IMG/VR virus record: IMGVR_UViG_3300021389_000188
Location: 1-21,202 of that record
DNA: 21,202 nt
Direction: 5' to 3' (one strand)
Source: a virus
The translations under genes and the position numbers were made by a program. Shown here in pieces: positions 10,615 through 18,254 of this stretch; position 1 is the first letter of the stretch; the number at the start of each line of letters is the position of its first letter. The notes under the pieces are model-generated. The model saw only the letters and a list, made by a program, of their open reading frames with translations, made no database searches and had not been told where the DNA came from.

Positions 10615-11904
10615 TTAAGCAGCTGGTCGAACCAATGAAGAGCCAACACCAGAGATAATCTGGCTGAAGCCCATAGATTGGCTAGATACGATAGCTGTAC
10701 GCTGGTTAGCAACTTCGTAGTCAGTCTCAACCTGCAAACCACCCAGACGTGGGATGATGAATGCGTCACGGTTAGCAACAACAGCGTCACCGTCAACACC
10801 AAGCTGGTCACTTACTACAACTGGAGAGCCGTAGAAGTTAGCGATAGTACCAGTAATACGTGCAGCATTATCCATGCCTACCTGCTGGAACTCATCGAAC
10901 TCACCTTCTTGGAGCAGCTCGTTATAAGCAGCAACAGAAAGGATATAAACCAGACGAGAAGGATCAACGCCCAGGTTGCCCAGAGCAGTACGGCCCGCAA
11001 GTAGATCTTTACGACCCATAACTAGCTCAGTGCCTTCGTCAGTAGCAGAAGCATTGTCAAGAATATCTACGATAGTCTTTTCAACTTTCTTAGCCTGCGC
11101 GTGTGCAAGAGCGTTCATGATGATTGGCATTACAGTAGCAACCATAACTTCATCAGTGTTGTTGTCGATAAACTGACCAGCGATCAGACGATTAGTAGTC
11201 AGAGTAACATTACCCAGAGCGTACTCACCATCAGTACCACCGCCATCAGCGATACGGTTAGTAGCAGTACCGATACCACCAGTGTCTTGAGCAGCCTGAG
11301 TTGGCTCCAAACCTACTGGGATAACAGTCTTCTGAGCAGTAACAGCCAGCTCGTCGAAGAAGTTAGCAGCACGGTAGTTCAAACGTACGTTCTCTTCGAA
11401 CTTATCGATAGCAGTTTGTTCAACAGCACCGGTGAAAGCAACGTTAGCTTTCTGAAGAGCAGCTTGACCAGTAGCAGTGTCTTCGAAAGACTTGCCTAGT
11501 ACTTTAGCAACCATAGAAGCGTTCATGAAATCCTTACCGAAGCTAGACAGATCACCTGATTTCTGACCACGGCCAGAGAAGTCGCGCTTGCTGTTACGCA
11601 TAGCTTCCAGCTCAGCTGAGTGCTCTTTAAGGGCAGACTCATACTTCTCTAGTACTTCAGCCATGTTAGCATCTTTAGTAGTTAGTTCTTTTTGCATATC
11701 AGCTTCGAGAGCTTCAACGCCTGTTTTAACACCAGTTTCGATGCTTGATTTGATTGCTTGTGCTTCAGCAGCTTTAGCAGCTTCTGCGTCTTGAGCGGCT
11801 TTTTCAGCTGCTTTTTGCTCGGCCTGCTTCATTGCGATTTTAGCAGCAGTTTCGTCTGCAACCTGCTTCGCAAAAGCTTCCAAGTCGATTTGATTCTTGT
11901 CCAT
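10615..11904 (-). CDS. Major capsid protein from internal start within the fusion
   Basis: An in-frame ATG at 11904 (codon 208, MDKNQIDLEAF) has AGGAG with six-base spacing (11911-11915), stronger than the site of the outer start. It would give a 429-residue capsid protein with its own delta domain and no protease. Codon use changes at this point: by hand count Asn is AAT in 12 of 13 codons before it and AAC in 16 of 21 after it, as expected if the downstream part is translated far more. This would set the protease-to-capsid ratio by initiation. The nested product is inferred, not observed. Confidence 0.75.
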   Translation of the reverse strand: MDKNQIDLEAFAKQVADETAAKIAMKQAEQKAAEKAAQDAEAAKAAEAQAIKSSIETGVKTGVEALEADMQKELTTKDANMAEVLEKYESALKEHSAELEAMRNSKRDFSGRGQKSGDLSSFGKDFMNASMVAKVLGKSFEDTATGQAALQKANVAFTGAVEQTAIDKFEENVRLNYRAANFFDELAVTAQKTVIPVGLEPTQAAQDTGGIGTATNRIADGGGTDGEYALGNVTLTTNRLIAGQFIDNNTDEVMVATVMPIIMNALAHAQAKKVEKTIVDILDNASATDEGTELVMGRKDLLAGRTALGNLGVDPSRLVYILSVAAYNELLQEGEFDEFQQVGMDNAARITGTIANFYGSPVVVSDQLGVDGDAVVANRDAFIIPRLGGLQVETDYEVANQRTAIVSSQSMGFSQIISGVGSSLVRPAA

Positions 11905-12525
11905 TTTGATCTCCTGATCTGCGGAATTAAGTTCCGCGCTTTTCGGTGTGTGGTCACTAGCTACATTTGAAGCGTTTGCTTCGTCCTTAGCCAGAGACTG
12001 ACCGGCTAGATCTACACGATTAGTGAAAGTTTTTTTGAATTCGTCGTATTCCTCAGTGGAATCAAACGACTTCGCGAGCGAAAAAGTAGCTGCCTGATTG
12101 CAGGGTACCGATACAACCGATACTTCAAACAACTCAGCGTCCTTAATCATTAGTCCGTCAGTTTCTTTTAGGTAGTCCGCGTCCTTGACTTTGAAACCGA
12201 CGGAAAAGGCTCCAAGGACACCGTCTTTAACGAGTTCAGCAACATTGCCAGGGGCATTTTTGCTAATCTTACATTCGAGTTCTAAACCATTTGGTCCTGC
12301 TTTCATACCTGTGGCTCGACCAATTGGTCTATCATAGTCATGATTAAACAAAATAATTGGATTTTTCTCAAAATTTTGTAGTCCACCTTTAGTCCAAGCC
12401 TCAGCTGAGATTGTATCACCTGCGCGATCAAAATCTGCTGTACTAGCCATACCACGAATCATTACTGATCCATCGTCTGATTCTGCGGCTTTGAAAGTAG
12501 ATGTTAGATTAAAAATCTTATTCAT
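10615..12525 (-). CDS. Prohead protease fused to HK97-fold major capsid protein
   Basis: This 636-residue frame joins two head genes that are usually separate. Residues about 1-160 are a U35-type prohead protease: NHDYDRPIG with His62, GAFSVGF with Ser108, and LFEVSVVSVPCNQAA. A linker leads to Met208, and 208-330 is an Ala/Glu/Lys-rich coiled coil like the HK97 delta (scaffold) domain. About 330-636 is the capsid fold, including VPSRLVYILS-like and YGSPVVVSDQL segments. A strong internal ribosome site before Met208 suggests that capsid protein is also made alone. The outer ATG has only weak GAG upstream. It ends with tandem TAA TAG followed by a terminator. Proteolysis would remove the delta domain during maturation. 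Confidence 0.92.
   Translation of the reverse strand: MNKIFNLTSTFKAAESDDGSVMIRGMASTADFDRAGDTISAEAWTKGGLQNFEKNPIILFNHDYDRPIGRATGMKAGPNGLELECKISKNAPGNVAELVKDGVLGAFSVGFKVKDADYLKETDGLMIKDAELFEVSVVSVPCNQAATFSLAKSFDSTEEYDEFKKTFTNRVDLAGQSLAKDEANASNVASDHTPKSAELNSADQEIKMDKNQIDLEAFAKQVADETAAKIAMKQAEQKAAEKAAQDAEAAKAAEAQAIKSSIETGVKTGVEALEADMQKELTTKDANMAEVLEKYESALKEHSAELEAMRNSKRDFSGRGQKSGDLSSFGKDFMNASMVAKVLGKSFEDTATGQAALQKANVAFTGAVEQTAIDKFEENVRLNYRAANFFDELAVTAQKTVIPVGLEPTQAAQDTGGIGTATNRIADGGGTDGEYALGNVTLTTNRLIAGQFIDNNTDEVMVATVMPIIMNALAHAQAKKVEKTIVDILDNASATDEGTELVMGRKDLLAGRTALGNLGVDPSRLVYILSVAAYNELLQEGEFDEFQQVGMDNAARITGTIANFYGSPVVVSDQLGVDGDAVVANRDAFIIPRLGGLQVETDYEVANQRTAIVSSQSMGFSQIISGVGSSLVRPAA
11905..11915 (-). 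promoter_or_regulatory. Internal Shine-Dalgarno for capsid start
   Basis: AGGAG followed by ATCAAA and ATG inside the protease-capsid gene. It decides the start of the capsid-only product. Confidence 0.75.
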
Positions 12526-12526
12526 A

Positions 12527-12817
12527 TTATTTCTCTACAGTACTTGCCCTGAGTGCTTCTAAAGGGTCTTTGCTTTCCTCTACAGGTTCATCCTGTGGAG
12601 GGTTTAGTGCTAATGCACAGAGTTCTTTTTCTGCGCTTTGTACTTTGGTTGTGAAAGAACCCCAAGTATTAAAATACCTCTTCCAGGTTCTTCGTAAAAC
12701 TGCGTCTGGCTTTCCAGTTGGGTACTTATCCTGCAACCCTTTATAACTAGAAGGTATCTCACCTATCTCTGCAAACCATACTGCGGCCTTTCTTACTATC
12801 CTGTCTTTTGTGTTCAT
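12527..12817 (-). CDS. Unknown 96-residue protein between portal and protease
   Basis: I do not recognise this protein. It is predicted mainly helical: an N-terminal basic helix (MNTKDRIVRKAAVWFAEIG), a middle with aromatic and basic residues (AVLRRTWKRYFNTWGSF), and an acidic Pro/Glu C-terminus (DEPVEESKDPLEAL). Its ATG overlaps the portal TGA, and its TAA is one base before the protease start. Its place between portal and protease suggests a role in prohead assembly or as a small connector, but nothing in the sequence proves it. Confidence 0.6.
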   Translation of the reverse strand: MNTKDRIVRKAAVWFAEIGEIPSSYKGLQDKYPTGKPDAVLRRTWKRYFNTWGSFTTKVQSAEKELCALALNPPQDEPVEESKDPLEALRASTVEK

Positions 12818-14001
12818 TCTTCCTCTTCTGGAGGCCTACCGCCTTCATCTGGGTTAGCTGCTGAACCTGCAATATTTGCAGGAACTCGTATATCGTTAGC
12901 ATCATCTCTAGTATCGTACCCAAGAGCTTCGCGAGCTTCGTTCGGGCTAATGATACCGCCATTCACCAATGAGGTGTAGTAGGCTGATGCGTCACGTAAC
13001 TCGGGCTGCAGAGCAGGTACTCCGGTTACGTCTTCTACAATCTCAAAACCAAAGTAGCGAGAGAGTGCTGAATTTAATTTGTTAATATTTGTCAGTATAG
13101 TCTCTAAGTAATACAGGCGCATATTCGGGCGAATATTTGCATTGTTTCCAGAGTCTAGTAGAATTGGTGGAACACCGATTGCTTTCAGAATAATCTTTTC
13201 GTTTTCTGCAATAGCTGTTTGAAAGTCTAACTCTTTAAAGTTTACATTTGAGATCTTATCAACCTCTAGGCCACCATCAAGAATCAAAGGATTACGACCA
13301 CCGGCATCAGGGCGGTAGCGAGCTTGCCAAGAAGTCATCATACGCTCTTTGATTTTCTCTGAAAGAGTGTTTGGCGACTTTAGTACTAAACCCGGAACTG
13401 CTCCGTTCTCGAAAAACTTATCCTGAAACTTTCTCATACGAGTCATAAGCATCATAGTTCGAGTTGCAGGCTTCAGTCGAGACACACCACGGAATACATC
13501 GTGGAAAGAGTTTTCTTTAACGTGGATAATTTCTTGAGGAGAATAATCAATATCATTATAGCTATACTTTTCAATATAGGTCTTTGGATCTCCATGAATT
13601 ACTACATTATCGGCTGGTAAGTGGTAAAGGTGCGCTCCATCAAAGTAGATAAAGATGTTACCATCAAGAAGTAAGTCTGTGAAAAGATTACGTCTAAATG
13701 TGTTAATGTCTTGGAAAGGGTTAGGCTCTTTTGAAAGAAGTAGCTCAACTTTTGATCGCTTAACGCCTTTAACAACGCCAGGCATTGCAATAGGCTTAAC
13801 AGTGGTGCGTACACCCGCAGAGTCATCAACTACCATGTTTACGGCTCGGTTTACTACTTCGAGTTCTTCATAGTAAAACTCGTAGCTGCCTGTATGCTCT
13901 CTAGAAGATTCAACATTATTACCCACCCACATCTGTATAGGGTTGAGCTTTTCCTCAACTTCTACAGGGGCTTTCTTTTCAAAAGGATTATACCAGGCCA
14001 T
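12814..14001 (-). CDS. Portal protein (HK97 gp3-like)
   Basis: The 395-residue protein forms the dodecameric ring at the capsid vertex through which DNA passes. It starts MAWYNPFEKK, has the core segments NLFTDLLLDGNIFIY and HLPADNVV, a stem/wing region (MRKFQDKFFENGAVPGLVLK), KAIGVPPILLD, and the characteristic LVNGGIISPNEAREALGY near the C-terminus, followed by a Pro/Glu-rich tail. Length matches the HK97-type family. The start overlaps the HNH end and its TGA overlaps the next ATG (ATGA). Confidence 0.93.
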   Translation of the reverse strand: MAWYNPFEKKAPVEVEEKLNPIQMWVGNNVESSREHTGSYEFYYEELEVVNRAVNMVVDDSAGVRTTVKPIAMPGVVKGVKRSKVELLLSKEPNPFQDINTFRRNLFTDLLLDGNIFIYFDGAHLYHLPADNVVIHGDPKTYIEKYSYNDIDYSPQEIIHVKENSFHDVFRGVSRLKPATRTMMLMTRMRKFQDKFFENGAVPGLVLKSPNTLSEKIKERMMTSWQARYRPDAGGRNPLILDGGLEVDKISNVNFKELDFQTAIAENEKIILKAIGVPPILLDSGNNANIRPNMRLYYLETILTNINKLNSALSRYFGFEIVEDVTGVPALQPELRDASAYYTSLVNGGIISPNEAREALGYDTRDDANDIRVPANIAGSAANPDEGGRPPEEEE

Positions 14002-14353
14002 GTTTTTCTCTTTGAATCTCTACCCAGCGCATCTGCTTTTTTGCGGTTCCGAGGACAGGATCTTTTCCGTAAATTTTATGTAGTGCTAAATGATGGTGAT
14101 GACATAAAGTCACTGTATGGTCATATAGCTCGGCACTGTGTTCTTCAATGAAGTCATCCCTGAGTGCTTGTATATAGTCAGGGTTCAGTTTGTTTTTTGT
14201 AAGCCACTGGTTTAGGAGTGGTGTCAAGCTATAAAAATGGTGGAAATCAAGTTGCTCTGTCTCGCCACAAATACGACACTCTGTCCCTTTCTCATACTTG
14301 GACTTTGCCTTGTCTCGTACATACTTTACTGCGTCACGTTTTAGTTTAGGCAT
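13988..14353 (-). CDS. HNH endonuclease
   Basis: The 121 residues contain a zinc-type CRICG (Cys26, Cys29), the central LDFHH (His38, His39) and TLCHHHHLALH (Cys84 to His92), the layout of HNH nucleases with a metal-bound beta-beta-alpha fold. HNH proteins next to large terminase and portal genes are common in cos-packaging phages, where they assist terminase cleavage of concatemers; this position suggests the same. It is a small stand-alone protein and shows no sign of being inside an intron. It overlaps the portal start by 14 bases. A weak GGAAAG precedes the ATG. A homing endonuclease is the alternative. Confidence 0.85.
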   Translation of the reverse strand: MPKLKRDAVKYVRDKAKSKYEKGTECRICGETEQLDFHHFYSLTPLLNQWLTKNKLNPDYIQALRDDFIEEHSAELYDHTVTLCHHHHLALHKIYGKDPVLGTAKKQMRWVEIQREKHGLV

Positions 14354-16438: not shown

Positions 16439-17163
16439 TAAGCTGGATCCTCTCCTGAAATAATAAGGTCGAAGTTACAAATTATCTCTGACCCCGCGGA
16501 GGTGGTTATAGCCTGCAAGTCAATATCAGTCTTTGCAGGCATGCGCATTCCTGTATATAAAGACTGTGTAAAACTATTTTGAAATACTTTAATCTCGCTT
16601 TTTAGCTGAAAACTCTCTCCTTCTTCACGGCAATATAACTGTACAGTTGCATCGTCGTTTTTGCCTGTAGAACTAGTATAGTTTAAAAGATAGCCTACAT
16701 AACCTGCTGGGATTGTATACACAGCCATTTGAGTTTGTCCTACACCTTCTGCAATTTGAGCTACTACAGTTCCTGTTCCTGATACTGTGTGTGCGGTAAT
16801 TGTTCCTGCATTTGCACTTCCAATATAACTCATGCGATGAACTCTTCGAAAAGTGTTATCAAATTGAACCGCGGTTGCTCCCGTCATTGCTTTGGTCTCT
16901 ACTTGCTTTATGTAGTTTGCATCTAGGCCTTCTATTGTAAGGAGTCCCGTATCTGCGCCCTCATCACTCTTTGCAAAGATATTTTGACCACCAGCATCAA
17001 AGGCAGACCAAGGATATAGACCTCCTGCACTCCACACGCTTTCCTGCGCGGTACCTGATAGCGCGGGATTGTGTCCAAATTTATGGATAGGGTGTAGATA
17101 CTGTCCAAGCCCATCTGTATTGTGTGCGTGTCGAATGAAATCGAAATCGGTCATTGCTACCAT
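16438..17163 (-). CDS. Probable virion structural protein (beta-rich)
   Basis: About 240 residues with the N-terminal signature DFDFIRHAHNTDGLGQYLHP followed by IHKFG, then mostly beta-type sequence with Gly/Thr/Ser turns and a final strand NFDLIISGE. Two starts are possible, 17163 and 17154 (MTDFDF); neither has a strong ribosome site. From memory this N-terminal signature occurs in conserved structural proteins of marine podo- and siphoviruses, where the role is unclear. A capsid decoration or spike protein is a fair guess. The TAA overlaps the next ATG. Confidence 0.6.
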   Translation of the reverse strand: MVAMTDFDFIRHAHNTDGLGQYLHPIHKFGHNPALSGTAQESVWSAGGLYPWSAFDAGGQNIFAKSDEGADTGLLTIEGLDANYIKQVETKAMTGATAVQFDNTFRRVHRMSYIGSANAGTITAHTVSGTGTVVAQIAEGVGQTQMAVYTIPAGYVGYLLNYTSSTGKNDDATVQLYCREEGESFQLKSEIKVFQNSFTQSLYTGMRMPAKTDIDLQAITTSAGSEIICNFDLIISGEDPA

Positions 17164-17465
17164 TTTACTTTATCCGCCCAATATGCTGCTGACATTTTGC
17201 CTTTAGCTATATTCTTTGCGTGACGTGCTTTAAACGATCTACGCTTTGCTTTCATTGCTTCTGATTCTCCAGCCTTGGGCTTCCCTGCCGTACGAGCTCC
17301 TTGCTGGCCGAAACGAATCGTTTTAATTTTGTCCCCAACCTTAGCCACAACAATGTGAGACTTCTTCGGGTGTTTTGGAGTACGTTTAGGTTTATTATAA
17401 CCACTGACTCCAGCCCTTTTTAATCTGCCATTAGGCTTCTTCTTACCTTTTCTTTTTGCGGCCAC
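17157..17465 (-). CDS. Basic protein (SGYNKPKRTP...MSAAYWADKVKW type), GTG start
   Basis: The start is GTG at 17465, with AGGAG eight bases upstream; the only later ATGs would remove most of the protein. The 102 residues include SGYNKPKRTPKHPKKSHIVV, a short beta segment (KVGDKIKTIRFG), FKARHAKNIAKGKMSAAYW and ADKVKW at the end. I recall this pattern from many marine phages as a conserved hypothetical. It ends with TAG, followed one codon later by an in-frame TGA. Function is unknown; the charge suggests nucleic acid contact. Confidence 0.65.
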   Translation of the reverse strand: MAAKRKGKKKPNGRLKRAGVSGYNKPKRTPKHPKKSHIVVAKVGDKIKTIRFGQQGARTAGKPKAGESEAMKAKRRSFKARHAKNIAKGKMSAAYWADKVKW

Positions 17466-17727
17466 TGCTCTTTCTCCTTTTCACGAATGTAGATACATTA
17501 CGTGGCTTACCTCCAGGATTACCAGCTGCGCGCTTTCTACGGATTGCTGACTTTCTCTGTGCAGGTGTCATGCGGGCTGCTTTTGCAGCGGGCACACATT
17601 TGGGGTACTTTCCTGTCTTTGCTACGGATCTACCACAAGTGTGGTATCCTCCACCTTTTTTAGGTCTGGAAATATCTACCCACTTTTCTTTGAACCACTT
17701 AGTAAGCCCGCCTTTGGTCTTTGCCAT
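17443..17727 (-). CDS. Basic protein with WVDISRP / CGRS / CVPAAKA motifs
   Basis: Ninety-four residues, strongly basic. It contains KWVDISRPKKGGGYHTCGRS, then KYPKCVPAAKAARMTPAQ, then a Lys/Arg/Ser-rich tail. The two Cys and adjacent His could hold a metal or disulfide. Similar sequences are familiar from environmental phages and giant viruses without a known role. GGGAG seven bases before the ATG is a good ribosome site. Its 3' end overlaps the next gene by 23 bases. It is probably a DNA-binding or virion component, judged only from charge and company. Confidence 0.65.
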   Translation of the reverse strand: MAKTKGGLTKWFKEKWVDISRPKKGGGYHTCGRSVAKTGKYPKCVPAAKAARMTPAQRKSAIRRKRAAGNPGGKPRNVSTFVKRRKSSGRKKKR

Positions 17728-17912
17728 TACTTGACTCCCATTCGGTACTTACCGCCGCGTTTCTTGTACTCTCTCACTAAGTATGCGTTTGCATATGCGG
17801 AAGGGTATACTTTAAACTTTCTCTTGGTCTCCGACTTTACTCTTGAGTATAGTCTTTTATTCGTCGGAACTGGTTTCTTCTTCGCGGCTTTCCTCTTCCT
17901 CTTCACTGCCAT
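17727..17912 (-). CDS. Very basic small protein (VYPSAYANAY motif)
   Basis: I place the start at the ATG at 17912, giving 61 residues, because GGAG lies seven bases upstream; an in-frame ATG at 17948 would add an unlike MCQCPSSFWRLK and has no good ribosome site. The N-terminus is MAVKRKRKAAKKK. A conserved-looking block (KFKVYPSAYANAYLVREYKK) is followed by RGGKYRMG. From memory, this block recurs in small proteins of phages and large DNA viruses, of unknown function. High positive charge suggests nucleic acid binding. The TAA overlaps the next ATG. Confidence 0.6.
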   Translation of the reverse strand: MAVKRKRKAAKKKPVPTNKRLYSRVKSETKRKFKVYPSAYANAYLVREYKKRGGKYRMGVK

Positions 17913-18042
17913 CTTCAGTCTCCAAAAGCTCGATGGGCATTGGCACATCTAGGAATTTAATAGCTTCTTGCTCTGTGGCAAATTTATGAAGCTTTCCATC
18001 AACTCGGACGCACCAGCGACCTCTCTTTTCATATATACCCAT
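17857..18042 (-). CDS. Small protein with beta-like head and acidic tail
   Basis: The N-terminal half (YEKRGRWCVRVDGKLHKFA, TEQEAIKFL) looks like a short three-stranded sheet plus helix, reminiscent of arm-type or AP2-like DNA-binding folds, though this is a weak resemblance. The last 24 residues contain 14 Glu/Asp. TAGGAG six bases upstream supports the ATG. The DNA of the acidic tail overlaps the Lys/Arg-rich N-terminus of the next gene in another frame by 56 bases. An acidic protein among four strongly basic ones could be a charge partner or chaperone; this is inference. Confidence 0.6.
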   Translation of the reverse strand: MGIYEKRGRWCVRVDGKLHKFATEQEAIKFLDVPMPIELLETEDGSEEEEESREEETSSDE

Positions 18043-18254
18043 TATTTGCTCCTACGTTTGCGATTCTTGCTCGCTCTTTGGCCTCTTTTGGGTTTGCTTG
18101 GTTTCTTCTTCGGCTTCTTCATAGCTTTCTCAAAAGCTGCGTGTGTTTTACCTGCCATGTGAATCTTCCCCTTTCCGGCACCGTGACTATGAGTACCGCT
18201 TAAACCTAACCGCTTCGCTGCTTTCATAGCGGCTGCTTTAGTTTTATATCGCAT
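18042..18254 (-). CDS. Very basic small protein (KTKAAA / GTHSHGAGKGK type)
   Basis: These 70 residues are about one third Lys/Arg with a single acidic residue. A conserved-looking core (MKAAKRLGLSGTHSHG, AGKTHAAFEKAMKK) is followed by a run of Lys/Pro/Arg to the end. The composition fits a nucleic-acid-binding or DNA-condensing virion protein. Similar short proteins with SGTHSHG occur in marine phages as far as I recall, with no known role. AGGA seven bases before the ATG is a reasonable ribosome site. The TAA overlaps the ATG of the acidic-tailed protein that follows. Confidence 0.6.
   Translation of the reverse strand: MRYKTKAAAMKAAKRLGLSGTHSHGAGKGKIHMAGKTHAAFEKAMKKPKKKPSKPKRGQRASKNRKRRSK

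Follow-up and report, generated by a model that had tools for sequence, protein, structure and literature searches.

A predicted internal capsid start and a covarying RNA element within a phage protease-capsid fusion gene

Our analysis suggests that a single gene in the window (the whole 21,202-nt stretch of viral DNA analysed) encodes two nested proteins: an internal start, together with an RNA element, would drive synthesis of the capsid subunit, and the outer start would yield a protease-capsid fusion as the minor product. We give this reading a probability of roughly 0.8. Annotated fusions of this kind occur in several phage groups, and the literature that we found leaves unexplained how a protease on every capsid subunit is avoided. 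An internal start with its ribosome site guarded by a structured, dual-coding RNA is our proposed and testable answer. Neither the RNA element nor the nested capsid protein would be picked up by automatic annotation.

The internal start and its two predicted products

The gene, its ribosome sites and its protein parts are located as follows.

10615-12525, minus strand: protease-capsid fusion gene, 636 codons from the outer ATG (open reading frame; Peptidase_S78; phrog_80/617/4523; T5 pb8 homology)
12526-12545, minus strand: weak outer ribosome site GTAGAGAAATAAT before the ATG at 12525 (duplex energy -2.9 kcal/mol)
12058-12474, minus strand: prohead protease domain, residues 18-156, with His62 and Ser108 (Pfam PF04586, E = 1e-14)
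11911-11915, minus strand: internal Shine-Dalgarno (SD) sequence AGGAG
11902-11904, minus strand: internal start codon ATG (Met208)
10615-11904, minus strand: nested capsid reading frame, 429 aa, with the delta domain at about 208-359 and the mature capsid at about 360-636 (T5-family capsid match; optimal-codon fraction 0.77)

The sequence-only reading had placed AGGAG-N6-ATG in frame at codon 208 and considered it stronger than the outer ribosome site, and both statements were borne out. The motif lies at 11915-11902 on the minus strand within the 636-codon frame. Pairing with the standard anti-SD sequence, which may differ from the 16S tail of the host, was -7.4 kcal/mol at the internal site versus -2.9 kcal/mol at the outer start, and pairing was weaker than at the internal site for all remaining in-frame ATG codons. 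The gene thus has the in-frame ATG and SD required of a nested internal-start gene, with a product predicted from the sequence.

To collect homologues, IMG/VR was scanned three times with the fusion and capsid proteins, and a further scan used DNA patterns of the start region; this resulted in 322 matching loci, 191 of them distinct, with the own-genome locus and named relatives included. Some survey patterns contained the SD or its peptide; most did not, and their matches agree. The comparison with homologues proposed earlier found the internal ribosome site in every case: all 176 distinct fused homologues had an in-frame ATG and a GGAG-containing SD at the aligned position (AGGAG in 146, AAGGAG in 25, TTGGAG in 3 and TAAGGAG in 2), counts that are not independent events because the homologues are related. 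The residues before the internal start varied (Gln, Lys or Leu, then Glu), and the Glu codon was always GAG. Of 78 homologues, 71 had a stronger SD at the internal start than at the outer start. On one metagenomic contig only (L119, 40-195), the linker carried a TAG, while the internal start just after it was intact. Two candidates for split genes within the fused clade were rejected: L314 was actually fused, the apparent split being an alignment artefact, and in L101 the capsid part was frameshifted, probably through faulty assembly. Genome contigs matched unrelated marine metagenome-assembled genomes, and therefore no host is claimed.

Codon use changed within the gene beyond chance, but the change began somewhat after codon 208. 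Asn was encoded by AAT at 12 of 13 positions upstream and by AAC at 16 of 21 downstream (p = 2e-4), and Phe and Ile shifted in the same sense (p = 0.007 and p = 0.001, respectively). Asp, which had been reported to follow the same trend, did not shift (GAC/GAT 10/8 vs 16/13, p = 1). Counting E. coli-type optimal codons, the fraction was 0.34 in the protease half versus 0.77 in the capsid half; the remaining genes of the window ranged from 0.24 to 0.46, which includes the value of the protease half. The best change point was codon 262 (support 222-306); its log-likelihood ratio was 40, and 500 permutations gave at most 8.4, indicating that the break starts after the internal start and not at it; the change was centred 15-100 codons downstream of Met208. 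Optimal codons were commoner downstream in all 150 homologues compared, and a similar low optimal-codon start was found in some separate T5-type capsid genes.

Both protein parts could be assigned. The protease domain belongs to PF04586 (S78 prohead protease), with a score of 55.3 bits versus the gathering cut-off of 21. His62 and Ser108, invariant in 36/36 fused homologues, are presumably the catalytic pair, judging from what is known of the S78 family. The 429 aa from Met208 matched residues 12-445 of 458 of the T5-family capsid 8zvi (E = 3e-17), so that homology to a T5-type capsid (HK97 fold plus delta domain) extends across the whole precursor. Lys359-Ala360 aligned with T5 Lys159-Ala160, where the 299-residue mature T5 chain begins, and Lys359 was invariant in the same 36/36 homologues; a maturation cut after Lys359 (K359/A360) is predicted. 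The AlphaFold model of the fusion was modest (mean pLDDT 57.8); in it, the protease domain is rich in beta structure, residues from about 172 to 214 are unstructured, long helices span 215-311 and the capsid fold follows, for which the best Foldseek matches in the PDB were the DT57C and T5 capsids. The protease and delta part matched the profiles of PHROG 617 (major head protein) and 4523 (major head and protease protein), of about 626-644 positions, but the matches ended near residue 300 and the capsid part was unmatched.

The full-length fusion is probably made as well, because the open frame, the His62/Ser108 active site and the Lys359 maturation site are all kept. Rare initiation at the weak outer start would produce the 636-aa protease-delta-capsid fusion, and frequent initiation at Met208 would produce a 429-aa delta-capsid precursor equivalent to T5 pb8. 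The fusion would co-assemble via its delta/capsid part, through the covalent linkage a restricted number of proteases would enter the prohead, and these would remove the delta domains by the predicted cut after Lys359. Upstream of Met208, within the codons of the linker and of the C-terminal end of the protease, the mRNA would fold into the helices described below, pairing with itself and leaving AGGAG unpaired, which would promote capsid initiation. We infer the ratio of fusion to capsid, the co-assembly and the action of the RNA through ribosome access. The internal initiation proposed in the sequence-only reading gains support, on the sequence level, from the conservation of the site, the T5 capsid match, the codon bias, the synonymous constraint and the RNA element.

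The RNA element and competing explanations

The RNA element is the more novel part of our results and was overlooked in the earlier reading. At codons 143-226, synonymous variation was down to 0.15-0.6 of the expected level. In an unbiased covariation scan of the whole 1,908-nt gene in 86 non-redundant homologues, every helix that scored substantially and contained at least two covarying pairs fell between -165 and -17 relative to the internal ATG, and none was found elsewhere in the gene. The helices are listed below.

12041-12069, minus strand: RNA hairpin H0, outer stem TCGTT/GACGA and inner stem ATTCC/GGAAT (covariation, largely at wobble positions)
11944-12004, minus strand: RNA stem C, CGGT at 12004-12001 with ACCG at 11947-11944, enclosing H1 (GCC/CCG versus GCA/CCT wobble covariation)
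11957-11994, minus strand: RNA hairpin H1, stem A CTGGCTA/TAGCTAG and stem B GAAGC/GCTTC (paired in 99% and 97% of cells, with compensatory changes)
11921-11937, minus strand: RNA hairpin H2, GCGGAA/TTCCGC, 5 nt upstream of the internal SD (double changes in 5/6 pairs, 0/500 shuffles)

The compensatory changes in five of the six H2 pairs were seen among 25 distinct junctions. In H0 and stem C the strongest coupled positions included wobble bases, and the coupling there therefore does not come from the protein sequence. With an alignment built without structure, 95.5% of cells were paired versus 86.1% in shuffles and 89 cells had double changes versus 22.5 in shuffles; sliding the helix partner abolished the pairing signal. 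One G-U pair was invariant in 33/33 sequences. Conserved G-U pairs fit only a sense RNA, and a DNA cruciform or an antisense RNA is unlikely since these pairs would become A-C mismatches. We also considered H2 as a terminator on the antisense strand (plus-strand match at 11920-11938), but some homologues, L224 and L316 among them, lack the T run.

A covariance model of the element gave one match in each of 12 related records, and Rfam 15 gave no match to the element at the gathering threshold or at E up to 5. The folding z-score for -170 to -12 was -3.5 in the group of the window versus -0.85 in control regions, and -1.4 to -1.5 at the junctions of the T5-type phages and of a second fused group (see below). 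The element was not convincingly present in the T5-type split phages, where model hits were weak at best, or in the second fused group. An ancestral H2 in T5 phages was rejected as well, their junction hairpins being unremarkable in energy (mean z -0.97) and the model hits weak. Small hairpins (CTAGC/GCTAG or CTACC/GGTAG) were noticed about 20-40 nt before T5-type capsid starts, e.g., L083:3540-3593; they are suggestive, though statistically not firm. The H1/stem C part was deleted in four homologues (L207, L210, L211 and L248), indicating that it is not essential; H2 and the SD were kept there, and H2 may thus be the core. In folding models, the predicted SD accessibility was 0.74 for the native sequence versus 0.37 with synonymous upstream codons, and such synonymous codons weakened the fold in silico in 40/40 homologues. 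We think it fairly likely that this element of about 150 nt in the protease and linker codons serves specifically to control capsid output from the internal start in a large marine phage group, be it as an enhancer, a switch or a processing signal.

How the element acts could be read in other ways. It may mainly be a signal for mRNA processing or stability: an endonuclease would cut in or near H1, and H2 would cap a capsid-only message translated from AGGAG. H1 and stem C do form a hairpin of about 19 pairs that is irregular and contains an internal loop, and processing would leave H2 at the 5' end; however, the four homologues without H1 still keep H2 and the SD, and we regard this explanation as possible but unlikely. 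The element may also be a regulatory switch, to which the capsid, the protease or another factor binds, repressing or timing capsid translation. Its size, multiple helices and strong covariation resemble translational operators, and an alternative pairing GGTCAG/CTGGCT at 11989-12003 competes with stem A, as a two-state switch possibly would; in L005, L006 and L203 the corresponding pairing GGTCAG/CTGACC is perfect. Few loop sequences are conserved, however, and the predicted ground state has the SD open, and we regard the switch, too, as possible but unlikely.

Explanations that dispense with internal initiation on the fusion message fit less well. A separate internal promoter could give a capsid-only transcript, the conserved region then being promoter DNA, and the constrained region does reach codon 143. 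But no sigma-70-like promoter was found in 11850-12850, and the constraint shows as covarying base pairs, G-U pairs among them, which points to RNA and makes a promoter improbable. It is very improbable that only the fusion is made, with capsid subunits released by cleavage and the internal site persisting as a relic of once-separate genes. Relatives encode protease and capsid separately, and the protease present could cut the linker; yet a relic would hardly be kept at the nucleotide level in 176/176 homologues, nor would the codon break and the covarying RNA, and if both parts were translated one to one, high-expression codons in the downstream part only would have no reason.

Relation to known systems and neighbouring genes

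Fused protease-capsid genes (in actinophages and PHROG families) and nested head genes are known already. In phage lambda, gene C contains an in-frame internal start for Nu3, so that a smaller number of protease-tagged molecules and a larger number made from the internal start have the same C-terminus. However, the nested product there is a scaffold and here it is a capsid subunit, and the likeness drawn here is one in the mode of working. The available parts of the papers on Arthrobacter AM/AU/AN, Microbacterium EE/EL and Rhodococcus RRH1 phages report protease-(scaffold)-capsid fusions that, like the window gene, join protease and capsid in a single gene, and these parts describe the fusion without an internal start or RNA element (PMC5513430, PMC7302621). 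We saw no close sequence relation of these genes to the window gene. In RRH1 gp07, an AAGGA-N9-ATG stands in frame between the parts of the protein. In our limited search of the literature, no internal start in protease-capsid fusions was found; nor, in the literature and libraries searched to the same limited extent, was the combination of fusion, internal start and covarying dual-coding RNA.

T5 and the Demerecviridae share with the window the order portal, small gene, protease, capsid, head completion, tail completion, terminator and tail, and their capsid, with the delta domain fused to it, is homologous end to end (PMC5292684). The T5 prohead contains 775 copies of pb8, from which the protease pb11 removes the N-terminal scaffolding domain (PMC5292684). 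In T5-type phages, however, a stop separates protease (pb11) and capsid (pb8) into two adjacent genes, as in the named Demerecviridae members examined, whereas the window gene is fused. A second fused set, nearer to T5 (L394, L396, L403, L407 and L412), also had an SD and an ATG in frame at the junction, with the codon break in 5/5. In a maximum-likelihood tree of the capsid, all two-gene T5-type members formed one fully supported branch apart from the window gene, and one change sufficed to explain the fused and split states. The branch of the split T5-type phages lies among or beside fused lineages. Under midpoint rooting, one of the possible roots, the fused state would be the older; the change may have been a fusion or a fission, and the tree leaves room for a fused state older than the two-gene T5 arrangement.

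Elsewhere in the window, a row of several very short Lys/Arg-rich basic proteins was observed at 17157-18254, and a small HNH-endonuclease-like gene (phrog_3497, phrog_8048) lies between the terminase and portal genes at 13988-14353. At 456-1220 there is a protein with a JAB metallopeptidase-like and an NlpC/P60 domain, of a kind seen at tail tips.
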